A stretch of 64,000 bases of DNA, taken from positions 1-64,000 of IMG/VR virus record IMGVR_UViG_3300032291_001597. One strand, written 5' to 3'. Position numbers and translations under genes: made by a program. Positions 12,435-53,534 of the stretch are shown here, in pieces. The notes below the pieces were generated by a model that was given only the letters and a program-made list of their open reading frames with translations, was not told the DNA's origin and ran no database searches. The stretch is from a virus. Position 1 is the stretch's first letter, and each line of letters opens with the position of its first letter.

Positions 12435-13026
12435 GTTCCCCGCTCTTGTTTAGGGAATCAGCGATAGCCTGATAGGTCTTTCCTGAATCCCTAAGTGAAA
12501 TAATAAAGTCCTTCAATTCTTGAGGGGCTTTATTTTTTGGACCCATATCTACGCCCCAAACAATCCCGCGGTCGCGTCGGTCTTTGTGGACTTCCTTCTG
12601 GCGCGAAGCAATGATGCCACGCTCCATCTCCGCGAGCGCGGACATGATAGTAACCACGAATCGACCTTGATAAGTGGCGGTGTCTAGATTTAGGTCAAGC
12701 ATAATTAGACGCCAGCCGTTAGTATTTGCTCTATCTATGATGCTCAAAAAGTCCTTTGTAGAGCGTGCTAGGCGGTCTATGCGGGTCACAAAAAGAGCCT
12801 TGACTTCTCCGCTATCTAGTCTCTTTAGGGCTTCTGTGAGCGCAGGACGCCCCGAAATGGACTTACCTGAGCGACCCTCTTCCCTAACAAGTTCGATGCT
12901 GGTATATCCAGCCAACTCAGCGGCGTGCTGTAGTTGACGTTCTTGAACGTCTAGAGAAACGCCATCGTTTACTTGGAGTTGCGTGGACACGCGTGCGTAT
13001 AATAAAGCAATGCCTAGGTCTTCCAT
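12334..13026 (-). CDS. Small serine recombinase (resolvase/invertase type)
   Basis: The 230-aa protein has the resolvase catalytic layout: LLYARVSTQLQ with the nucleophilic serine, EEGRSGKSISGRPAL, VTRIDRLARSTKDFL with the arginines, and the E-helix AEMERGIIASRQ. The C-terminal DSGKTYQAIADSLNKSG is a helix-turn-helix. It is far shorter than large serine integrases (over 450 aa), so resolution, inversion or a moron-like role is more likely than lysogenic integration. It shares TAATG with the upstream ABC-GNAT gene and overlaps the convergent GT gene tail by 101 nt. Confidence 0.9.
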   Translation of the reverse strand: MEDLGIALLYARVSTQLQVNDGVSLDVQERQLQHAAELAGYTSIELVREEGRSGKSISGRPALTEALKRLDSGEVKALFVTRIDRLARSTKDFLSIIDRANTNGWRLIMLDLNLDTATYQGRFVVTIMSALAEMERGIIASRQKEVHKDRRDRGIVWGVDMGPKNKAPQELKDFIISLRDSGKTYQAIADSLNKSGEPTQNGRQWYPTTVRNLHQLALAEQEKPPTESAE

Positions 13027-14108
13027 TAGGCTCCAATGTATTCGTGAGAATAACTCCAGCGGTTCGGGTCAATGGACCATCTGGACTTTCCATCTAAGTT
13101 TAGCCCATCGGTTCTACGCATATGATTTTTGGAAGTCGGCTTCCAGAGAGGCGACTGGTCTCTGTATCCGCCTAAGCGTGGGTGGCTAGTCTTTGAGTAA
13201 TAACGTTTGCCGTTATTAATGTAATGTTGGGCAATCAATTCCGAAAGTTTTGGTCCCAGCCCGAATCCTTGATAGTCGGGGTGAATTACCAATCGGTGCT
13301 CTCGGTATGCTTCTTTCACTGTTCCAGAAGGATAAGCAATCGAAGCAACAAAACCTACTACTTCTCCATTCCAGAGTGCCAAGTAGCAGTGTGCCGATTT
13401 GTTGAGCGATTCGGAGAGATAGTGGTGCGAAGCGAAGTGGCTCCAAATTTGGTTTGAGCAAGGATGGACTTCAAGTACCATCTCTGGTCGATGAAGGTAC
13501 CTTCCCGAAGCCCACTCGCCTCTGTCGGTATCAATAATCCAATCTGGCTCCAAGTATTCAAGAATGTCTCGGTGGCAAGTCGCCAAAACTATACCTTCTA
13601 TTTCATTCTTTCTGACGTATCTAGCCATTGCGGTGGAAGCAGCCTTAGCGACGTTGCGGTCAATAACGGATGTGAATTCATCGATGCGGGCGCAGTTGTA
13701 TAGGGAGCGTGCTAGGTCTGCTCGAAACTGCTGTCCGTTTGATAAAACGTCATAAGGTTTTACCCATTCTGGGACCGACATCAAGCCAGCGGCAGACAGT
13801 TTTTCATTAGCATCAATTGGACCGTCAAAATGAGATGCGATTGACATTCCAAAGGTCCACTCTGGCTTCGGGGTTATTTCACCATCAAACTGAGCAAGCA
13901 GTTTAGATTTACCAGTGCCAGAAGCGCCAACAATTACGCCAATACCCCAAGAATCTGGCAGGTCTTCTGGCAGTAAATACGGGTAAAACTCCTCGGTCCC
14001 GTCTGAGTTGTAGTCAAAAGGCTTGATTAGTTCAGATGTGATTTCGTCCATGACCACCTTAGATGTGAGCGGGGTGGTGGAGCGTTTTAGTTTCTTCCAT
14101 TCCGTCAT
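13026..14108 (-). CDS. ABC-type ATPase fused to a GNAT acetyltransferase
   Basis: A 360-aa fusion. Residues about 55-195 are an ABC ATPase without membrane segments: Walker A VGASGTGKSKLL, signature LSNGQQFRADLARSL, Walker B region IDEFTSVIDRNVA and the H-loop ATCHRD. Residues about 205-330 are a GNAT fold with EHRLVIHPDYQGFGLGPKL as acetyl-CoA loop. No transporter permease is near. I infer an ATP-gated modification enzyme, possibly acting on nucleic acid like the Mom-type GNAT at 48932, but the substrate is unknown. It is co-transcribed with the serine recombinase. Confidence 0.8.
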   Translation of the reverse strand: MTEWKKLKRSTTPLTSKVVMDEITSELIKPFDYNSDGTEEFYPYLLPEDLPDSWGIGVIVGASGTGKSKLLAQFDGEITPKPEWTFGMSIASHFDGPIDANEKLSAAGLMSVPEWVKPYDVLSNGQQFRADLARSLYNCARIDEFTSVIDRNVAKAASTAMARYVRKNEIEGIVLATCHRDILEYLEPDWIIDTDRGEWASGRYLHRPEMVLEVHPCSNQIWSHFASHHYLSESLNKSAHCYLALWNGEVVGFVASIAYPSGTVKEAYREHRLVIHPDYQGFGLGPKLSELIAQHYINNGKRYYSKTSHPRLGGYRDQSPLWKPTSKNHMRRTDGLNLDGKSRWSIDPNRWSYSHEYIGA

Positions 14109-14573: not shown

Positions 14574-15332
14574 TTAGATTCCCAGTGCCTTGCGTTTTTG
14601 AGTAGCGGAAATTTGTTGTAGTTCTGGGCTTAGTTCTACTTTTTCAATCTTGTAGCCAACATCTCTACCATAAATAATGTTTGTAATGTTGGGCAGTCTT
14701 AGGACTAGAGTCCCCACTCGTTCCTTGCTATTCTCACGTATATATCCGACAACTTCTTCGTAAGTGAGCGGGTCTTTTTCCGAAGTTCCGTGGGTATCGC
14801 GGATTCCAACCAATACTTGAGCAGTTCTTTTATGCGCTTCATCTTTTAGTGCCTCGTGTCCCTCGTGCCAAGGTTGGTACCTACCAAGCATTAGAGTAGT
14901 GGGCTTTTTCCAATCAAGCAGTTGTGCCACGCTCATAACCACTGATACGGAAGACTCTAGTGGTATTCCTTCTACAATACGAGCATCTACTTCCTCTGGG
15001 TCTTCCCAGATTGAATTAGTGTCTTCGAATCTACTCTGCTGAATTCGGTCTACCCAAATCGATACGTCCGCGGTTCCAAATGCTTCTCTAGTCTGAGAAG
15101 TGGGGTTTACAAAATCCACAATTACAGTCTGTCCTTGACTAGATAAAAGTCTCGCTATCGCTCCTAGGCGGCGAGCATTTTCTATTCTGTCTTCTATGGA
15201 GAATCCTAAATCGGAGTTTAGTTCTGCTCTAACCTCGTCGGCGTTGAGGTGTATCGCTGGGGTTCTCTCTAATAGTGCTTTGGCTAAAGTAGTTTTTCCG
15301 CTACCAGGCAATCCAAAAATCAAAATAATCAT
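14574..15332 (-). CDS. APS-kinase-like domain fused to an HxGH nucleotidyltransferase
   Basis: About 252 aa. The start at 15332 is preferred because it follows the upstream stop by 2 nt, whereas an ATG at 15365 would overlap it by 31 nt. Residues 1-130 resemble adenylylsulfate kinase: IFGLPGSGKTT, then LNADEVRAELNSDLGFS and EDRIENARRLGAIARLL. Residues 140-252 are a nucleotidyltransferase with GRYQPWHEGHEALK (HxGH) and ISATQKRK in place of ISSTxxR. ATP sulfurylase belongs to the same HxGH superfamily, so a sulfate-activating (PAPS) enzyme is attractive beside the sulfotransferase at 15939. An NadR-like kinase/NMN adenylyltransferase is the alternative. Confidence 0.75.
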   Translation of the reverse strand: MIILIFGLPGSGKTTLAKALLERTPAIHLNADEVRAELNSDLGFSIEDRIENARRLGAIARLLSSQGQTVIVDFVNPTSQTREAFGTADVSIWVDRIQQSRFEDTNSIWEDPEEVDARIVEGIPLESSVSVVMSVAQLLDWKKPTTLMLGRYQPWHEGHEALKDEAHKRTAQVLVGIRDTHGTSEKDPLTYEEVVGYIRENSKERVGTLVLRLPNITNIIYGRDVGYKIEKVELSPELQQISATQKRKALGI

Positions 15333-15334
15333 TA

Positions 15335-15931
15335 CTAAATTATATCTTTCCAGAAGGCTGGGCACATGTATTTGTTGCCAGAAATGATTTCTCTAGATTC
15401 GTGATAGAACGGTGCGACTGATGGGAAAATTACTATGCTCCCAGCCTCTGGTTTTATGGTCACACCTTGCTCTTTGAAGTGCAGTTCACCGCCCTCGTAT
15501 TCATCGTTCAAGTAAAGAACCGCCGACATAATTGGCTTAACTTTTGGGTTAGTTCCATAGTCGTCGACGTGTGGTCCCATTCCAGCGCCTTTTATATATT
15601 TAGAGATACTTAGCGGACTAGGCTTGGCAATGCTTAGATTATTTTTTCTGGCGTAATCGTTACCTACAAAAAGTAGTGACGTATAAAAAATGTCGTAAAT
15701 AAGTTTGGCGTCTACAGTAGAAAACTCATACATCTCTGGTTTACTACTAATCTTCGAGCCAAACTGAAAGTCTTTATCGTCCGAAGCAGTCCAAGGCTCC
15801 CATTGGGTAAGCACGTTTCCATCACCTAAAGTTGGCTGAATTTCTTCCAGTAGGTCTACTAATTCTTTACAGTTTGCTACTACATTCTTATAGTAAAAAA
15901 TCTTGTCTGCAAATATTTCTAAATTAGTCAT
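15335..15931 (-). CDS. 2OG-Fe(II) oxygenase (prolyl 4-hydroxylase-like)
   Basis: A 198-aa protein with the P4H iron facial triad and co-substrate Lys/Arg region in order: MGPHVDDYG (HxD), VLYLNDEYEGGELHF, IKPEAGSIVIFPS, YHESREI (distal His) and SGNKYMCPAFW. Such enzymes hydroxylate Pro or other residues using 2-oxoglutarate and oxygen. It lies in the minus block between the APS-kinase-like gene and the oxygenase-sulfotransferase fusion, 7 nt from the latter. Acceptor not proven; the fibre proteins upstream in the same operon are the obvious candidates. Confidence 0.85.
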   Translation of the reverse strand: MTNLEIFADKIFYYKNVVANCKELVDLLEEIQPTLGDGNVLTQWEPWTASDDKDFQFGSKISSKPEMYEFSTVDAKLIYDIFYTSLLFVGNDYARKNNLSIAKPSPLSISKYIKGAGMGPHVDDYGTNPKVKPIMSAVLYLNDEYEGGELHFKEQGVTIKPEAGSIVIFPSVAPFYHESREIISGNKYMCPAFWKDII

Positions 15932-15938
15932 TTACGCC

Positions 15939-17381
15939 TTAGAAATTAGTCTTACTGTATACGTAATAGTCGAACTCAAAGTAATTCCTTAGTAGTTCTA
16001 ACTGCTCTTCGGTCAAAGAATCGTAAAGGTTCTTAGAGTATTTGTTAGTGAAAACTTCTCTAGGGTTTTCTTTTAGGCTCTCAAAGTAGCGATTTTCGTT
16101 GTCTATACCAACTAAATCCAACTGTTTGCTGTCGCTACCCAAATAGTTGTGTAATTCTCTTCTAAGAATGTGGAACTTTTCTTTTGAGAACTCCTCTAAT
16201 TTTATTACTTTATTAAATTTAGAAAGTTGCTCGTCAATTTCTTCTTTTGATTTATAGTACTCTTCGTCAGAGTCTACAAACTTATTTATGTTATCGAAGC
16301 CGTCTTCGAACAGACTTATGGTCATAAATTTGCCAAAGTTCTTGCGAGACATAAAATAGTCCCACATTTTGTCAAACGTCAATAAGGACATATCAATATT
16401 GTCTTCTGAATTAAGTAGACCAGTCGAAGTCAGACAAACTCCGTGACAGTACTGACTTACTGCGCGGGCTATCGGGTCCCTAAGTGTAGTAAATACATAA
16501 GTATTTTTTGTGATTCTTTCGGAACTAAATCCAAAATGTTCTACTTTATTAGGAATCTTTTTGTAGCCAACCATGTAACTTTCTACTATATGGTCGGAAT
16601 GGGTGAGTCTTTGAATAAGTTCTCTGCCGCCAGTTTTTTGGATGTGGAGAAAGTAAATTCTTTTATTGCCAGAGGTGGAATCTTCGATTGACAATCTTCT
16701 CTGCTCTTCTATCAGAGATGAGCGTTCTTTTCTTAACTCTCTTTGTTGTTTTTCCTCTGCCTGCTCTTGTCTTACTTTCTTGATTTCCTCTTCCCACTCC
16801 GCTTTTCTTTCTTCTGAATACTCTGCGTCTGCGTAGTCCCAAAATGACACCATTGTATATCTAGTGCCTTCAGTGATGTGGGTTACTCCATGGATGTTTT
16901 CGTGTCCGCCTGGAAAAGTAATAAACATTCCTGCTTCTGGCTTGATAGTTATCTCGTGGTGCGGGAAGTATAGTTCTCCACCTTCGTAATTATCATTCAA
17001 ATAAAGAATTCCTACGTACTTATTTATCTCAAAAGCGTTTGGATTTCCATCAAAGTCTGAGTTATCAGAGTGCGGATTAGCGAAAGCGCCTACTTCCCAT
17101 TTTTGAGCGTGAGAAGTATTTGGTCTAACTGCTCTACCGTGAGACTCTGCCACCGCCGATTGGTATTTATCTCTTAGCGTTCCGAAATAGTCTGCTTCTA
17201 GGCCGTAGTTTGTAGCAGAGTTGTCACTACCCGGAATTCCCATTCCGTAAGACTCGAAGAACGCAACGTCATTCCAAAGATGTCCCATTGACTCAAAGTA
17301 GTCAATTATTTTTTGTAGGTCGCCTTGAGGCACAAAATTTTTGTAGCCGATGATGTCGTGTTTGTATACTACGGTTTCCAT
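15939..17381 (-). CDS. 2OG-Fe(II) oxygenase-sulfotransferase fusion
   Basis: A 480-aa two-domain protein. Residues 1-200 are P4H-like: ANPHSDNSD (HxD), LYLNDNYEGGELYFP, IKPEAGMFITFPGG, HGVTHITEG and RYTMVSFW. A charged coiled-coil linker (about 200-240) leads to a sulfotransferase: YFLHIQKTGGREL is the 5'-phosphosulfate loop for PAPS and TTLRDPIARAVSQYCH the 3'-phosphate motif. The fusion suggests that hydroxylation creates an OH group that is then sulfated, or that both act on one protein. Neighbouring genes supply more hydroxylases and a likely PAPS-forming kinase. It overlaps the next oxygenase gene by one base. Confidence 0.85.
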   Translation of the reverse strand: METVVYKHDIIGYKNFVPQGDLQKIIDYFESMGHLWNDVAFFESYGMGIPGSDNSATNYGLEADYFGTLRDKYQSAVAESHGRAVRPNTSHAQKWEVGAFANPHSDNSDFDGNPNAFEINKYVGILYLNDNYEGGELYFPHHEITIKPEAGMFITFPGGHENIHGVTHITEGTRYTMVSFWDYADAEYSEERKAEWEEEIKKVRQEQAEEKQQRELRKERSSLIEEQRRLSIEDSTSGNKRIYFLHIQKTGGRELIQRLTHSDHIVESYMVGYKKIPNKVEHFGFSSERITKNTYVFTTLRDPIARAVSQYCHGVCLTSTGLLNSEDNIDMSLLTFDKMWDYFMSRKNFGKFMTISLFEDGFDNINKFVDSDEEYYKSKEEIDEQLSKFNKVIKLEEFSKEKFHILRRELHNYLGSDSKQLDLVGIDNENRYFESLKENPREVFTNKYSKNLYDSLTEEQLELLRNYFEFDYYVYSKTNF

Positions 17382-18049
17382 TATTCTCCAGTGTGCTTAG
17401 TAATGTTCCAGAAAAACGGGCAGGTATATCTGATGCCAGACTCTATTTTTGTTACTCCGTGAACGTAATTCATATCGCCTGGAAAAAAGTATGCGGCTCG
17501 TGGCTTGGGCTTGATAGTTATGCCTTGTAGCGGAAAGTAAAGTTCACCGCCGACATAGTCATCGTTGATGTAAAAAAGACTGGCTAAATCATAATAAGGA
17601 AAGTCGTTAGGTTTGCCTCTATGCTCGCCTTCGTGTAGTTCTTTATCTGCGTGCGGGTGTTGGTATTGACCTGGCAACCATCTAACCATCGCTGGGCTAG
17701 TTGGATTTGCCTCTACCTTAAAGAAGTCTTGGATTATTGGTCTTAATCTGTTTACTAAGTTTTGAATAATCACTGGAATTTCTGGGTTTGCTTCTTCTAG
17801 GGTTCTACCAGTTGCTACCCTGTCTTTCCAATACTCTGACTCATAGATAACTACACCTTCATCGTTGTAGTGGGTCTCCGTAACATCCCAGTGGGTGTTA
17901 GTTCTAATGAAACTATCTAAAACTTGATGCTCTTCTTCAGTCATAAAGTTTTCCAACTCTACGATGTTGTCTTTAGAGTCACCAAAAAACCCAGACGGAG
18001 TAATAGAGATTGGCTTTTCTGGTTCGTAGTTTCTTGTGTTGTTATCCAT
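17381..18049 (-). CDS. 2OG-Fe(II) oxygenase (prolyl 4-hydroxylase-like)
   Basis: A 222-aa protein with YQHPHADKE (HxD), LFYINDDYVGGELYFP, IKPKPRAAYFFPGD, YVHGVTKIESG (distal His) and RYTCPFFW. The core is the same as in neighbouring genes but the N-terminal half differs, so acceptor specificity may differ. It shares one base with both neighbours, so translation is coupled. Confidence 0.85.
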   Translation of the reverse strand: MDNNTRNYEPEKPISITPSGFFGDSKDNIVELENFMTEEEHQVLDSFIRTNTHWDVTETHYNDEGVVIYESEYWKDRVATGRTLEEANPEIPVIIQNLVNRLRPIIQDFFKVEANPTSPAMVRWLPGQYQHPHADKELHEGEHRGKPNDFPYYDLASLFYINDDYVGGELYFPLQGITIKPKPRAAYFFPGDMNYVHGVTKIESGIRYTCPFFWNITKHTGE

Positions 18050-18777
18050 TATTTGTAGGTCCTTCTTTCCCAGACTTCTCTCTGATAAACGCCACCATCA
18101 GGGACTCTATATTTTTTAGCATTTTCCATATTTTTGTCATACAATTTTTCTGGTGGTTCAATTATAACTGTTGATTCCCAGTTCTCTCTTTTGAACGGAA
18201 TTAGTTGAGCGTATGGGGTTCCAGCAGGAATCACCCCAGTAAAACCTTTTACTAGAAAGAATGGCATAGTGCCGGGCAGGTTTACCTTGTCGTTGTCGAT
18301 GATTCCATTAGTAGTTATGAAAGGTAATTCATATCTGTTTAGGGGAGTGGTGTATAAAACGCTATACCCTTCTGGGACTTCTACAGCCCAGTCTGCCCAC
18401 CAAGCAAAATGCTGTTCGTAGAAACCTTCTGGGTGTGTGAACTGTGGGAGTGGCTCTCTGTAGGTACAAAAGTCCTGATAATAAGGATTATCAATCTTCA
18501 CATCGATTCGACCTTGCTCGTTGATAAAAAACTCTACGTCGCAGGGGGTCTTATACACATATCCAGAACCCATTACGTCGTAGATAGCGGGGCAAGCCTT
18601 CCAAGTTGGAATTTTGCCGTTATCAGGACCTATGGCATATTCACCATTATGTGGATTTTTGTAGTGCCTATCAGCATTGATGTACCAATCGGGGATGGTC
18701 TTTATGATTGGCTCTGGCTTGGAGATACTGATTTGAGTCAACCAAGGTCTGTTAGATACAAATTTAATTTCTGGCAT
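18049..18777 (-). CDS. Phage protein of a DUF6065/cupin-like type
   Basis: A 242-aa protein with many aromatic and proline residues. The C-terminal part has PFFLVKGFTGVIPAGTPYAQ followed by LIPFKRENWE, a beta-rich signature that parallels IPAGTPVASVLPI in the next gene, so the two are probably distant paralogues. In several phages I recall such proteins next to prolyl hydroxylases; their role is unknown. A jelly-roll scaffold, binding partner or inactive oxygenase relative are possibilities. I see no iron-binding HxD triad. Confidence 0.6.
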   Translation of the reverse strand: MPEIKFVSNRPWLTQISISKPEPIIKTIPDWYINADRHYKNPHNGEYAIGPDNGKIPTWKACPAIYDVMGSGYVYKTPCDVEFFINEQGRIDVKIDNPYYQDFCTYREPLPQFTHPEGFYEQHFAWWADWAVEVPEGYSVLYTTPLNRYELPFITTNGIIDNDKVNLPGTMPFFLVKGFTGVIPAGTPYAQLIPFKRENWESTVIIEPPEKLYDKNMENAKKYRVPDGGVYQREVWERRTYK

Positions 18778-19480
18778 TTTTTGTCTTGTCTGTTGTGATT
18801 AGGCTGATGTTTCTTACTTCGTGACGACCCATTGAGTCGCCATTCTCATTTACAGCGTTTTTGTAAAAATTTGACCAGTCGCCATTTAGGTTGTGCTGGT
18901 GGACCGCCATTCCGTAAGAAGCCATCCTCTGCCAGTCTGCTTCTTCAAAGTTAGCATCCTCCACTAGAACTTCATAAGTTTGCAAATTTGCCAAGGAAAT
19001 AGGCAAAACAGATGCGACCGGGGTTCCCGCTGGGATTGTAATTTCTACGTTTGGTTTAGTTATTCTCCAAGCAACTGGCAGGGCACTGTCTAAAAATGAA
19101 GTGCTGATTAGGGTAGTAAAGCAATATGTACCATCAATAAATTGATTAGGAACAGGCATCACCAAAGTAGTTACATCTTCGTCAGTCTCGAAATGTAAAT
19201 TAGTGTTAAAACTGATAGTCGCATTTCCTCTATTAGTAGAGCAATACTGTTCACCAGCAATTATTTTCACGTGCTGATTGGTTGTATCAGAAATGCCGTC
19301 CCAGATAAAAACAATATCTTCAGGGAAAGAAATGCCCCACCCCATCCTGTTGGTTAGAGTAAGTGGGAAGCAGTGATAAGAGTGTCTACCAGCAGTCTCC
19401 TCCATCCAATCCCTAGCGACTGGTAACTGCTTAATCTCAGCGGTCGAAGAGGTGGATTTTTTGACTCTTATTGTCGGCAC
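18764..19480 (-). CDS. DUF6065-like phage protein
   Basis: A 238-aa protein with NRMGWGISFPEDIVFIWDG, NATISFNTNLHF, TLVMPVPNQFIDG and VEITIPAGTPVASVLPIS. I associate this motif set with DUF6065, a beta-rich family without known function that recurs near 2OG oxygenase genes. The start overlaps the upstream oxygenase stop by one base, and the 3' end overlaps the paralogue by 14 nt. Confidence 0.65.
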   Translation of the reverse strand: MPTIRVKKSTSSTAEIKQLPVARDWMEETAGRHSYHCFPLTLTNRMGWGISFPEDIVFIWDGISDTTNQHVKIIAGEQYCSTNRGNATISFNTNLHFETDEDVTTLVMPVPNQFIDGTYCFTTLISTSFLDSALPVAWRITKPNVEITIPAGTPVASVLPISLANLQTYEVLVEDANFEEADWQRMASYGMAVHQHNLNGDWSNFYKNAVNENGDSMGRHEVRNISLITTDKTKNARN

Positions 19481-20193
19481 TAACTTCCTGTCTCTTGAGA
19501 GAACTCTGCACTCTTGTGGAACTTGTCCGAGAAGTCGGTCATAGTCACGATTGAATACTTAGTTCCTTCAGTTACGGGCATAGCCTGATGCGGATACATA
19601 AAGTTAGATGGGAAGATATAGAGGTCTCCTGCCCTCGGCTTTACCTTTAGGTTTAGAAGCCTAAAGAATAGTTCTCCGCCCTCATAATCATCGTTTGGAT
19701 AGGCAACCATGGAAACGACGCAGTTGTATGAGTAGCCGTGGTCGTGGTGCTCCATAAAGTGCTGGTTCTTCTCATACTTGATGAAGTTCATTGCTTCCCA
19801 ATAGCGAAGTTCACCGATGTTGTGGCGCTTTGCGTAGTCCTTAAGAGCATTGATTTGTCGGTCATAAACGTCTTGCCACAGTTGCTGTAGTTTTAGCGAA
19901 TCTTCGGACTTTACATGGGCAATGCTGTCCTTTGTAAACTTAAAGTCATAACAGTCTCGATACTCGGGCATCTTAGTCATGTATCCGACCATTGCTTCTT
20001 GGTAAGCAAATTCGCTATCTGGATTTAAGATAACTTCTTCAAGGCGCTGAATGATTTTCATGTCAGTCGGCAGGGCGTCTCTATAGACGTAGAGTCCAAA
20101 TCCGAGTTCTTCTACTGAAGACCAAGTCTGCTCTTTGACCGTGTAGTATTCCTGAATTCTACGACTAATCTCTTGTATTTCTGAGTTGTCCAT
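19480..20193 (-). CDS. 2OG-Fe(II) oxygenase (prolyl 4-hydroxylase-like)
   Basis: About 237 aa. The start at 20193 is chosen over an upstream ATG at 20250 because a GGAGG lies 4-5 nt before it. Motifs: FMEHHDHGYSY (HxD), MVAYPNDDYEGGELFF, VKPRAGDLYIFPS, MYPHQAMPVTEG (distal His) and KYSIVTMTDF. It is first of the oxygenase run, directly downstream of the FFPP-repeat protein gene. Confidence 0.85.
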   Translation of the reverse strand: MDNSEIQEISRRIQEYYTVKEQTWSSVEELGFGLYVYRDALPTDMKIIQRLEEVILNPDSEFAYQEAMVGYMTKMPEYRDCYDFKFTKDSIAHVKSEDSLKLQQLWQDVYDRQINALKDYAKRHNIGELRYWEAMNFIKYEKNQHFMEHHDHGYSYNCVVSMVAYPNDDYEGGELFFRLLNLKVKPRAGDLYIFPSNFMYPHQAMPVTEGTKYSIVTMTDFSDKFHKSAEFSQETGS

Positions 20194-20253
20194 TTTTCCT
20201 CCATCTGAGTGTAAAAAGATATTATCACGGATGAAGAAAAAATACATCAACTC

Positions 20254-21000
20254 TTAGTACATAGGTACTAGACCGAATCTAGGCGGGAAAAAAGGTGGGA
20301 AGAATGGCGGAGCAAAATAAGGTGGGAAGAATGGTGGAGCAAAATAAGGTGGGAAGAATGGTGGGAAAAACGGCGGGAAGAATGGTGGGAAGAATGGGGC
20401 CAAGGTGTCAATCGAGTTTGAGTAGGCAGAGACTGTCGAGTTTCCGTTAGCGTTGGCTGCTATTACGCGATAAGCATTTGTAGAGTTTCCAGTGCCTTCT
20501 TGGGCTACGGTTACCGACGTGGATACCGTGTTACCACTCTTGCCATCATCGCACTGCCAGTAGTAAATGCTAATAGTCTTACCACCAGTTGCTGGGGCAG
20601 ACCAGTTGACTACGTCTTGGTCGGCAACGGTGGATGATGCGGTTGGAGCATTGGGGGTTGCTGGAACGCTAGTGACTGTTACAGAGGAAGAAGGGGAAGA
20701 AGGAGCGGAGTTTCCGCTAGCGTTTCCAGCAATTACCGTAAAGGTATAGGCAGTGTTTGAAGTAAGACCGCCAATTGTAATTGGAGAAGATGCTCCGTTT
20801 ACGGTTATGCTATCTGGATTGGAAGTTACATAATAAATAGTCGCTGCTGGTGAGCCACCGGGCAGTGAAAAAGAAACAGTTGCCGCAGCGTTACCAAACG
20901 CCCTGCCAGTACCAACGTCAGTGGCAGAAACGCTAGTTGGCACTGATGGCTGTAAGAAGTCGTTTTGTTGCTGTGACTTTCTTCCTGCTCTTTTCGACAT
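20254..21000 (-). CDS. Fn3-domain virion protein with a Phe-Phe-Pro-Pro repeat tail
   Basis: A 248-aa protein: a basic N-terminus, two fibronectin type III-like domains (about 18-112 and 113-203), then a tail (about 205-243) made almost only of FFPP and YFAPP units. Fn3 domains are common on phage tail fibres and bind cell-surface glycans. The tail is unusual: nearly every residue is Phe, Tyr or Pro, which could form a polyproline-like rod and offers many prolines to the adjacent hydroxylases. It lies 16 nt downstream of the collagen-like fibre gene, supporting a shared structure. Confidence 0.75.
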   Translation of the reverse strand: MSKRAGRKSQQQNDFLQPSVPTSVSATDVGTGRAFGNAAATVSFSLPGGSPAATIYYVTSNPDSITVNGASSPITIGGLTSNTAYTFTVIAGNASGNSAPSSPSSSVTVTSVPATPNAPTASSTVADQDVVNWSAPATGGKTISIYYWQCDDGKSGNTVSTSVTVAQEGTGNSTNAYRVIAANANGNSTVSAYSNSIDTLAPFFPPFFPPFFPPFFPPYFAPPFFPPYFAPPFFPPFFPPRFGLVPMY

Positions 21001-21015
21001 TTAATCTCTCCCGTA

Positions 21016-25946
<4,931 letters not shown>

Positions 25947-25947
<1 letters not shown>

Positions 25948-32930: not shown

Positions 32931-33533
32931 TTAGTTAGGGTACTTGCTTTTATCTGAGTGAGTAAACATTGTAAGCGCGTATCTTTCACCTGAAATTACT
33001 TCTTTGACCCCGTGCTGGTATTCCTCGCTACCTGGGTGAATCACAATGCTGTGCTTCTTAGGCTTCATAGATAGGGCTTTTTGAGGATAGTAAATCTCCC
33101 CTCCCGTATAGTCGTCATTCAAATAAATAACGAAGCCGTGAAGGATGTCACTATTTCCTTCGTGTGGACCTCTGTCACTATGCACTGGCATTGAGTCTCC
33201 AGATTTGAATCTATTTATACAGTTAATGTAGGAGTAAGAAACCTGCCCCTTTAGTTCGGGGTATGTCTTTTCGTATAATAGTCTGGCTTTTATTTCTATC
33301 TCTCTTAGAACGTTTCGGTCTAAATCTGGCATTTCTGTTACAAAAAGGCTTTTGCCTTCCCAAAAATTAGAGTGGTCGTCTTTTTCTTTTGGCACTTGTC
33401 CGTCGGTCCACTTGGCTCTAGCCTGAAACTCGGCGGTGGAGATTAGGTAGTCAGCCTGCTCTTCTGTGATGAAATCTTCTTCTATAAGAATTTTGGTGTT
33501 TCCGTAAAAATAAGCCATAGCAAATTTTACCAT
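32931..33533 (-). CDS. 2OG-Fe(II) oxygenase (prolyl 4-hydroxylase-like)
   Basis: A 200-aa protein with SMPVHSDRGPH (HxD), VIYLNDDYTGGEIYYP, MKPKKHSIVIHPGS, EYQHGVKEV (distal His) and RYALTMFTHSD. It lies far from the main oxygenase block, between an HTH gene and a tRNA region, in the opposite orientation to its neighbours on the right. The start is ATG 33533 or 33518; neither has a good Shine-Dalgarno. Confidence 0.82.
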   Translation of the reverse strand: MVKFAMAYFYGNTKILIEEDFITEEQADYLISTAEFQARAKWTDGQVPKEKDDHSNFWEGKSLFVTEMPDLDRNVLREIEIKARLLYEKTYPELKGQVSYSYINCINRFKSGDSMPVHSDRGPHEGNSDILHGFVIYLNDDYTGGEIYYPQKALSMKPKKHSIVIHPGSEEYQHGVKEVISGERYALTMFTHSDKSKYPN

Positions 33534-35188: not shown

Positions 35189-35749
35189 ATGTCGCAGAAA
35201 GAACACGAGCCATTCAACTTTAAAAAGTCTGGCTTTTTTGAGGTAGATGGTATAAAAGAACTGGTGGGTAAGTTCAAAGACGAATGGCTAATCGATACTT
35301 CGCGTCAAGAAACTTATGCTGTTCATCAAGACACCGAGTCCTACTTTCTCTATCAGACTGACCTTACTTGGGAGTCTGGTGAGCCTTTTATAGTAACTAA
35401 ACACGACATTGACCCTGAGTTAGAAGACTTGGTAGAGCCGATAATTAGTGAATTAGAGGGACTCCACGACGGTCAGCGCGGGAATGTGTTACTTATCAAG
35501 TTGAAGGCTGGGCGTTCTATAGCCAGCCACCGAGATGGCGGTGAGTATTTAGACTCGGCTAGAAGACATCACATAGCAATTATTACTTCTGACGAGACCA
35601 AGTTTGGTGTGGGCGACGAAGAAATCTCTATGACCGAAGGCGTCTGCTGGGAGATAAACAACTCTCGCGTCCACTATGTAATAAACGATTCTGACACTGA
35701 CAGAGTTCACCTACTTGTGGACATAATGCCAAATTCAAAAACAAAATAG
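35189..35749 (+). CDS. Aspartyl/asparaginyl beta-hydroxylase-like 2OG oxygenase
   Basis: A 186-aa protein with IASHRDGGEY (HxD), HHIAIITSDETKF, GVCWEINNSRVHYVIN (distal His) and DRVHLLVDIM. This layout matches the Asp/Asn beta-hydroxylase branch rather than prolyl hydroxylases, so its acceptor may be Asp or Asn, or a small molecule. The gene is bracketed by near-identical 15-bp direct repeats (35161-35175 and 35749-35763). Confidence 0.8.
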   Translation: MSQKEHEPFNFKKSGFFEVDGIKELVGKFKDEWLIDTSRQETYAVHQDTESYFLYQTDLTWESGEPFIVTKHDIDPELEDLVEPIISELEGLHDGQRGNVLLIKLKAGRSIASHRDGGEYLDSARRHHIAIITSDETKFGVGDEEISMTEGVCWEINNSRVHYVINDSDTDRVHLLVDIMPNSKTK

Positions 35750-36258: not shown

Positions 36259-36292
36259 TTTTAATATCAATTCGTGAAGGATGAAAGTAAAA

Positions 36293-36928
36293 ATGAGTGA
36301 GTATCCAAAAATCATAAGCAACTTCATTTCTGATGAAGAGATAGCAAGAATAGAGTCTTTCTTGGACTCTCTGGCTAAACCTGCTCCTCATATGGATAGC
36401 CTGAGGGTTTGCTTGGGCTACCAGAACTCAAAGATTGCTTCAAAGATTGGGTATGAGCATCCTGTCTTGAATGGTTATCAGTCTGGCGAACATTCTGAAA
36501 CTGTCAAAGACATTGGAGACGTTCTTCTTAGAACTAAGTCAGTATTAGAAGAAGAGTTCGGTCAAGAGATGGATACCGTGAATTTTCTTTACCAGCAACT
36601 GCTGGAGGGTGGATTCAACCAACTTCACTCCGATAGCACCAAACTTGATGGCACCCCGCTTAGCGATGATGGAACTCCAGAAGAGACTGAGTGGTCCGCT
36701 TTACTATACCTAACCTCTGGTGGTGGCGAAGACTTTGAAGGTGGAGAACTGATTTTCCCTAAGCAAGGACTTACCTACGTTCCAGTCAAAGGTGACTTAG
36801 TGTTTTTTATTGGAGACGTTCACCACCCGCACAGGGTTGCCAAAGTCACTAGCGGAGTTAGAAGCACTCTTGTTTCTTTCTTTGCTAGAAAAGGAAACAT
36901 CTCTGAAGTAATCGCATTTCACGATTAG
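36293..36928 (+). CDS. 2OG-Fe(II) oxygenase
   Basis: About 211 aa. The start at 36293 has GAAGGA 11 nt upstream; ATG 36281 is too close to that site. Motifs: NQLHSDSTK (HxD), LLYLTSGGGEDFEGGELIFP, YVPVKGDLVFFIGD, HHPHRVAKVTSG (distal His) and RSTLVSFF. The loop GGGEDFEGGEL is longer than in the other copies, marking a separate sub-type. Substrate unknown. Confidence 0.82.
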   Translation: MSEYPKIISNFISDEEIARIESFLDSLAKPAPHMDSLRVCLGYQNSKIASKIGYEHPVLNGYQSGEHSETVKDIGDVLLRTKSVLEEEFGQEMDTVNFLYQQLLEGGFNQLHSDSTKLDGTPLSDDGTPEETEWSALLYLTSGGGEDFEGGELIFPKQGLTYVPVKGDLVFFIGDVHHPHRVAKVTSGVRSTLVSFFARKGNISEVIAFHD

Positions 36929-52994: not shown

Positions 52995-53534
52995 GTGCTA
53001 AAGCCGAAAATCGCTGTTTATTTAAATTTAGAAATTGAACTTTCAGAAGTTCTAAAACTCGCTGAAGACACAGAGTGGGTAGAAGCCACACTTGGTGGCA
53101 GATTTGTTGGGGTGGACGAGACTCTCATCAAATTAGAACCCAGCATTAGAGACGCTTCGCTAAAGAAATTAAAAGTTTTACAGGAAGCGATATTTCCTGA
53201 ACTAAAAAATTATGTCGAAGATTTTACGCACGACAGCGTAGTGATGGATACCTTTGCTTTGGTCAAATACACAGAGGGTCAGTTTTTTTCCGAGCACTCT
53301 GATGGGGTAGAGAATTTTGGTCGCGCCCTCTCAATTGTTATTTATTTGAATGACGACTACGAAGGCGGGGAGTTGTATTTTCGTAATCAAAACCTGACCC
53401 TGAAGCCAGTAGCCAAATCAATGGTTATGTTCCCTTCGACTGAAGAATTTCTCCACGAGGCTAAGCCAGTGATTTCTGGAACTAAATACGCAATCGTCAG
53501 TTTCTGGCATCAGCAACCTAGCGTGGAAAACTAG
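52995..53534 (+). CDS. 2OG-Fe(II) oxygenase (prolyl 4-hydroxylase-like)
   Basis: A 179-aa protein with a GTG start. Motifs: FFSEHSDGVENFG (HxD), VIYLNDDYEGGELYF, LKPVAKSMVMFPS, FLHEAKPVISG (distal His) and KYAIVSFWHQ. It is the eighth 2OG enzyme in the window and stands alone among small early-type genes, so it may act on a different target from the fibre-block enzymes. The start codon lies inside a degenerate copy of the TTTTTCC repeat. Confidence 0.82.
   Translation: MLKPKIAVYLNLEIELSEVLKLAEDTEWVEATLGGRFVGVDETLIKLEPSIRDASLKKLKVLQEAIFPELKNYVEDFTHDSVVMDTFALVKYTEGQFFSEHSDGVENFGRALSIVIYLNDDYEGGELYFRNQNLTLKPVAKSMVMFPSTEEFLHEAKPVISGTKYAIVSFWHQQPSVEN

Follow-up and report, generated by a model that had tools for sequence, protein, structure and literature searches.

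A single-chain fusion of a 2-oxoglutarate oxygenase and a PAPS-type sulfotransferase in freshwater tailed phages and its candidate link to an FFPP-repeat protein

Introduction

Phages often carry 2-oxoglutarate (2OG) oxygenases. In the viral record IMGVR_UViG_3300032291_001597, such an oxygenase seems to share one polypeptide with a sulfotransferase, which raises the question of whether the joined protein is real and, if so, which molecule its two halves might modify. The window analyzed here is the stretch of 64,000 nucleotides at positions 1 to 64,000 of this record. An initial annotation, made from the sequence of the window, had proposed a single-chain fusion performing a two-step protein modification, with an FFPP-repeat tail and GPT collagen-like repeats as possible substrates.

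Results and Discussion

The fusion gene and its genomic setting

The source record (132.6 kb) encodes a terminase, a portal, and major head and tail proteins. The major head protein shares 68% identity with its counterpart in Actinomycetia phage DSL-LC01, a lake phage with a metagenome-assembled 129-kb genome and Actinomycetia as its predicted host. The carrier of the fusion is a tailed freshwater phage of bacteria. On the minus strand, the genes follow in the order collagen-like tail fibre, FFPP fibronectin type III (fn3) protein, 2OG oxygenase, DUF6065 protein, phrog_7084 protein, 2OG oxygenase, fusion, 2OG oxygenase, and APS-kinase-like gene (Table 1). The order from the FFPP protein to the last 2OG gene was the same in three other viral contigs (L008, L009, and L011) and, up to the contig end, in L012.

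Table 1. Features of the fusion gene and its neighbors in the window
Feature	Position	Strand	Basis or remark
APS-kinase-like + HxGH nucleotidyltransferase gene	14574..15365	-	PF01583, 4.5e-19; overlaps the 15335..15931 gene
Standalone 2OG oxygenase directly downstream of fusion	15335..15931	-	PF13640, 7e-12
2OG oxygenase + sulfotransferase fusion gene	15939..17381	-	480 aa
PAPS-type sulfotransferase domain, residues 239-480	15942..16667	-	Sulfotransfer_2-like; profiles, predicted fold
TLRDPIARAVSQY, 3'-phosphate-binding motif, residues 299-311	16449..16487	-	R301, P303, S309 invariant
H282, likely catalytic base	16536..16538	-	Invariant in 41-sequence alignment
HIQKTGG, 5'-phosphosulfate-binding motif, residues 246-252	16626..16646	-	Conserved in 41-sequence alignment
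Charged helical linker, residues 186-238	16668..16826	-	Sequence comparison
2OG-Fe(II) oxygenase domain, residues 1-185 (H104, D106, H164, R174)	16827..17381	-	PF13640
Standalone 2OG oxygenase directly upstream of fusion	17381..18049	-	Sequence matches; one base shared with fusion
phrog_7084 protein	18049..18777	-	PHROGs match
DUF6065 protein	18764..19480	-	Profile match; recurrent in FFPP/2OG clusters
Standalone 2OG oxygenase directly downstream of FFPP gene	19480..20250	-	PF13640, 1.2e-13
fn3 protein with FFPP-repeat tail, candidate substrate	20254..21000	-	Sequence, synteny
Collagen-like tail fibre, 1643 aa, alternative substrate	21016..25947	-	PHROGs match, repeat composition

The phrog_7084 protein is a distant relative of the adjacent DUF6065 protein. 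Outside the cluster, at 32931-33533, 36281-36928, 52995-53534, and 35189-35749, the window holds three more PF13640 oxygenases and one Asp/Asn beta-hydroxylase. A 360-aa protein with a P-loop/ABC-ATPase-like N-terminal half and a GNAT acetyltransferase C-terminal half is encoded at 13026-14108, and its gene is conserved beside the cluster in every fusion contig that reaches that far.

The fusion recurs with an intact reading frame

The fusion ORF starts with ATG and is translated without an internal stop. When 2.9 million viral contigs were scanned, L008, L009, and L011 proved to carry the full-length fusion, at 74-76% identity. L010 has a copy that is 95% identical but truncated by the end of the contig, and the sequence of L012 stops within the linker of the fusion protein. 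L008 and L009 are close relatives, and therefore about three further variants of the fusion are represented. When the fusion-type sulfotransferase alone was used as the query in a second scan, the same four contigs were recovered. The junction is common to L008, L009, L010, and L011, the sulfotransferase half is 70-95% identical in them, and all motifs of the fusion are kept wherever they are covered. Both halves are under purifying selection, with dN/dS values of about 0.04-0.17 where these could be calculated.

Two findings that would argue against the proposal had been named in the initial annotation, namely, a frameshift or assembly error joining two genes and a loss of iron or PAPS ligands in close relatives. 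The first is rejected because the same in-frame junction recurs in four other contigs and because both halves are under purifying selection, and the ligands were found to be kept in the relatives. We are thus practically certain that the single-chain fusion is real. It is highly improbable that the gene arose artificially, by read-through or misassembly, or that one half is inactive; the score of the sulfotransferase half, under its Pfam cut-off, would fit such an explanation, but the junction seen elsewhere, the intact motifs, the selection on both halves, and the predicted sulfotransferase fold all speak against it.

The search for further fusions of this architecture yielded the four additional contigs, all belonging to this clade. 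Among the viral-contig loci collected because they contain a sulfotransferase or FFPP repeats, no other ORF combined the two domains, and no full-length match to the fusion was found in the phage or plasmid collections. Within this scope, no hydroxylase-sulfotransferase fusion was found outside this clade.

The oxygenase half

Residues 94-180 of the N-terminal half matched PF13640 with an E value of 1.9e-9 and 38.8 bits, above the curated cut-off of 27. The HxD...H iron triad (H104, D106, and H164) and the basic 2OG anchor (R174) are all present, and the HSD...H...R pattern is also kept in the alignment with close standalone relatives. The best solved relative was prolyl 3-hydroxylase 1 (P3H1; E = 1e-9), followed by prolyl 4-hydroxylase (P4H) and the lysyl hydroxylase LH3 with much weaker E values. 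The 2OG anchor is an arginine in prolyl 3-hydroxylases and lysyl hydroxylases and a lysine in P4H. Of the "complete P4H-like triad" first described, the triad therefore stands, but "P4H-like" is a loose label, because P3H1 is the closest solved relative and the anchor is an arginine. By sequence, the domain appears to be related to the collagen prolyl and lysyl hydroxylases (P3H1/P4H/LH3), with peptidyl-proline hydroxylation as its putative activity. It shares the HxD...H signature with the prolyl hydroxylases of PF13640, and the distal arginine with prolyl 3-hydroxylases; unlike these enzymes, the phage domain is small, occurs in arrays of several paralogues, and is fused to a sulfotransferase.

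The nearest relatives of the N-terminal half are standalone oxygenases. Such standalone forms, 51-64% identical to it, occur at approximately 75 other loci and share the C-terminal charged helix; indeed, the first ~30 residues of the linker correspond to the C-terminal tail of the standalone proteins. An already existing oxygenase therefore seems to have gained the sulfotransferase at its C-terminal end.

The sulfotransferase half

The HIQKTGG and TLRDPIARAVSQY motifs, which had been read at the outset as sulfotransferase signatures, are both present, and their key residues are invariant or nearly so. In an alignment of 41 sulfotransferase sequences, the LHI histidine, one glycine of HIQKTGG, H282, R301, P303, and S309 are invariant, and K249 and T250 are nearly invariant. 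We presume, from the heparan sulfate sulfotransferases, that H282 acts as the catalytic base. With 19.5 bits against Pfam Sulfotransfer_2 (PF03567; cut-off, 22), the C-terminal half is a relative of that family and not a member. It also matched phrog_3347, labeled "galactose-3-O-sulfotransferase" (E = 1.3e-4), and the profile of the sulfotransferase family matched heparan sulfate 6-O-sulfotransferase 3 (HS6ST3; E = 2e-6). The HIQKTGG motif is identical to that of HS6ST3, and the RDP...S 3'-phosphate motif is shared with the heparan sulfate 6-O- and 2-O-sulfotransferases; the phage domain differs from these enzymes in scoring under the Pfam cut-off, in being fused, and in its linkage to 2OG oxygenases.

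For structure prediction, no combined two-domain alignment was used, since sulfotransferase-only sequences were misaligned there onto the oxygenase half. The AlphaFold2 model of the C-terminal half had a pLDDT of 88, and all 50 PDB matches listed for it had a sulfotransferase fold (48 sulfotransferase chains and 2 chains of retinol dehydratase, which we take to be a member of this fold). These fold matches were modest, with a best E value of 9.6e-4 and a TM score of about 0.45 among the matches listed. The motifs and the model point to a PAPS-dependent sulfotransferase fold, with sulfate transfer as the predicted reaction, and both putative domains of the fusion are very probably catalytic. 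The fusion sulfotransferase is about 20-30% identical to other phage sulfotransferases; the domain had no match in the phage collection, and matches in bacterial genomes were weak and confined to the N-terminal motif.

The FFPP-repeat protein as candidate substrate

The tail of the FFPP protein starts APFFPPFFPPFFPPFFPPYFAPPFFPP, and these 27 residues are identical in the window, L008, L009, L011, and L012, despite an fn3 part that differs among the fusion phages. In the family of the N-terminal half, a same-strand, fibronectin-like ORF with (F/Y)(F/Y)P(P) repeats lies upstream in 39 of the 41 loci that have at least 5.5 kb of upstream sequence, and a 2OG gene directly follows the repeat ORF in 33 of the 44 FFPP loci of this family. 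The repeat was present in 1/76 sulfotransferase loci and in 0/79 APS-kinase-like loci. A reverse search that started from FFPP repeat DNA alone gave a 2OG gene within 3 kb in 45 of 62 usable loci, compared to 114 among the 528 ORFs that served as background (Fisher P = 2e-15, with kinship ignored); FFPP/2OG loci are interrelated, so that these counts overstate independence. A scan of 124 ORFs that lie downstream of FFPP genes gave 76 matches to PF13640 and 20 to DUF6065. Cyanophage 2OG arrays, such as that of Synechococcus phage S-SCSM1, are similar in that several 2OG genes surround genes for tail fibres, but no FFPP protein was found near the 2OG genes in the five marine phage loci examined.

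Thus, of the two substrates suggested initially, the FFPP tail has good support from synteny, and we lean toward a phage protein of this cluster, most likely this tail, as the substrate. Its location beside the tail fibre gene suggests that the FFPP protein may be part of the virion. It is a better candidate than the collagen-like fibre. Because one family of phage oxygenases is here linked to a particular repeat protein, the question of its modification target can be put to a direct test.

The fusion could instead be an auxiliary metabolic gene product that acts on a small molecule or on glycans of the host surface, for example, to block superinfection. Glycan enzymes are indeed the closest relatives of the sulfotransferase, and a role in 2OG/nitrogen signalling or in DNA repair has been considered for cyanophage 2OG oxygenases (PMC3037559). 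This explanation is made improbable by the synteny, which is tight with a single phage repeat protein and not with metabolic genes.

Some FFPP ORFs run on after the repeats into a C..DT[LIV] stretch that resembles a Hint (hedgehog/intein) autoprocessing domain. This was read by eye in L269 (3762-5012) and L287 (3-782) and found as a pattern match only in L296 (6071-7390), L309 (517-1863), L333 (8066-9304), and L286 (1-3294).

The collagen-like fibre

If the fibre with its GPT/GAQ repeats were the substrate, it would be hydroxylated and sulfated much as eukaryotic collagen is hydroxylated and glycosylated. The fibre gene adjoins the cluster, GXX-repeat ORFs were found near 14/74 standalone-family loci compared to 4/76 and 3/79 in the other locus sets, and P3H1, the best solved relative of the oxygenase half, acts on X-position proline. 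In the fibre of the window, proline occurs almost only in the X position, with threonine or glutamine in Y. However, the collagen-like fibre of the fusion phage L011 has only 3 prolines per 83 GXY triplets, and most loci of the family have no GXX ORF within reach, whereas the FFPP repeat is nearly universal. The fibre is therefore a distinctly unlikely target, and the proposal of GPT repeats as a conserved substrate is weakened by the proline-poor L011 fibre and by the fact that Y positions hardly ever hold proline.

In DSL-LC01 (L263), a tryptophan halogenase and a glycosyltransferase lie beside collagen-like tail genes (102221-103792 of the record), and halogenase genes were also found close to the APS-kinase-like gene. 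There may be further fibre-decorating chemistry in such phages.

Separate sulfotransferases in FFPP/2OG clusters

Separate sulfotransferase genes stand between or beside FFPP and 2OG genes in L019, L079, L111, L285, L289, L302, L306, and L312, and these unfused genes frequently overlap 2OG genes. The cluster sulfotransferases comprise several lineages whose mutual identity is mostly <30%, and so the association of sulfotransferases with FFPP/2OG clusters probably arose repeatedly. Since unrelated lineages recur in this setting, the fusion unites enzymes that repeatedly travel together. A general linkage of sulfotransferases to 2OG oxygenases was considered and dropped: profile-found sulfotransferases lay near 2OG genes in 20/81 cases compared to 63/287 for other genes of the same loci, which is not above background. 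The link is thus confined to some lineages and is retained for the FFPP clusters only.

The recurrence of standalone sulfotransferases in 2OG/FFPP clusters lends indirect support to the two-step protein modification first suggested, while the placement of sulfate on the very hydroxyl made by the first domain stays a guess, and a doubtful one. Against it counts the resemblance of the fusion sulfotransferase to the carbohydrate-sulfating HS6ST, for which a glycan would fit better than hydroxyproline. The two domains might act on separate groups of the FFPP cluster product, with proline being hydroxylated and tyrosine, threonine, or a glycan being sulfated, so that the fusion would serve co-localisation. 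The sugar substrates of the sulfotransferase relatives and the replacement of phenylalanine by tyrosine at some positions of FFPP tails agree with this arrangement, but tyrosines are few in the tails of the fusion phages, and no glycosyltransferase match was obtained with any of the 124 ORFs lying downstream of FFPP genes. We consider it rather unlikely.

A proposed modification pathway and its nearest known counterparts

In the reading that we prefer, the fusion would be a bifunctional enzyme that both hydroxylates and sulfates one protein of the cluster, most likely at the FFPP tail; we hold the chances of this to be evenly balanced. The N-terminal domain, with Fe(II), O2, and 2-oxoglutarate, would hydroxylate a phage protein from the same cluster, most likely at prolines of the FFPP tail or at aromatic residues. 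The C-terminal domain would transfer sulfate from PAPS to a hydroxyl on that protein, either the new one or that of a nearby tyrosine, serine, threonine, or glycan. The fusion would tether the sulfotransferase where the oxygenase array operates, and the adjacent APS-kinase-like enzyme would boost PAPS; an effect on adsorption or stability is conceivable. In a more specific and tentative version, for which the odds are clearly unfavorable, the 2OG arrays would hydroxylate the FFPP protein and a sulfotransferase fed by phage-made PAPS would sulfate the new hydroxyls, resulting in sulfated hydroxyproline or sulfated hydroxylated aromatic residues on a virion protein. Taken together, the cluster suggests that a viral protein is chemically decorated in two steps by enzymes dedicated to this purpose. 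If this is true, the fusion would act as a compact enzyme that equips proline-rich proteins with negatively charged groups.

Mimivirus L230 and animal LH3 each combine a lysyl hydroxylase and a glycosyltransferase in one chain. By analogy, these may be the nearest known concept, since they too are viral or animal single chains that pair a 2OG hydroxylase with a hydroxyl-acting transferase, and LH3 is a weak match of the N-terminal half. The fusion differs from them in that its transferase is a PAPS sulfotransferase, its carrier is a phage of bacteria, and its likely target is an FFPP-repeat protein. In open-licence papers, no published description of a phage hydroxylase-sulfotransferase system was found, and searches that addressed phage sulfotransferases, prolyl hydroxylases in connection with virions or phage tail fibres, or fusions of this type gave no paper on the system. 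A phage-encoded pathway of protein sulfation would, to our knowledge, be without precedent.

Possible supply of PAPS by the neighboring gene

The kinase half of the neighboring gene passed the PF01583 cut-off, and all 50 PDB fold matches listed for it were APS kinases or PAPS synthetase. The product scored 69.3 bits against the TIGR00455 equivalog, under the required 138.7, and so it is labeled APS-kinase-like. As in human PAPSS1, the kinase domain precedes the nucleotidyltransferase; in contrast to PAPS synthetase, the nucleotidyltransferase half (small, HxGH) is by sequence nearest to NMN adenylyltransferase, its best solved match, and not to ATP sulfurylase. An identity as ATP sulfurylase was dropped, the GRD and ISATxxR resemblances being by eye only.

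The APS-kinase-like gene was present in 29/42 large sulfotransferase contigs compared to 1/31 contigs of the 2OG-family set and to 1/25 of that set's contigs without a sulfotransferase, counts that ignore kinship. In the sequence covered, it was missing from all six contigs of the 2OG-family set that bear a sulfotransferase. At five loci (L180, L189, L198, L209, and L228), a sulfotransferase gene (Sulfotransfer_1/3 or _2) ends at or inside the start of the APS-kinase-like gene. Within the fusion clade, the gene is found in the window and in L010; in L008 and L011, it is absent both beside the cluster and from the remainder of the contigs. The kinase matches, the co-occurrence, and the gene coupling make provision of PAPS by this product likely; de novo synthesis of PAPS from sulfate by it would be a guess.

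The APS-kinase-like gene is common in viral contigs (at least about 600), although PHROGs labels it merely "kinase," and in some of the L171-L249 loci, it is coupled to sulfotransferase genes. At many loci, a 196- to 200-aa ORF with an FVHIPKTAG motif lies ~0.5 kb upstream of it (for example, at 4842-5441 in L182 and at 4856-5452 in L231) and is perhaps a shortened sulfotransferase.
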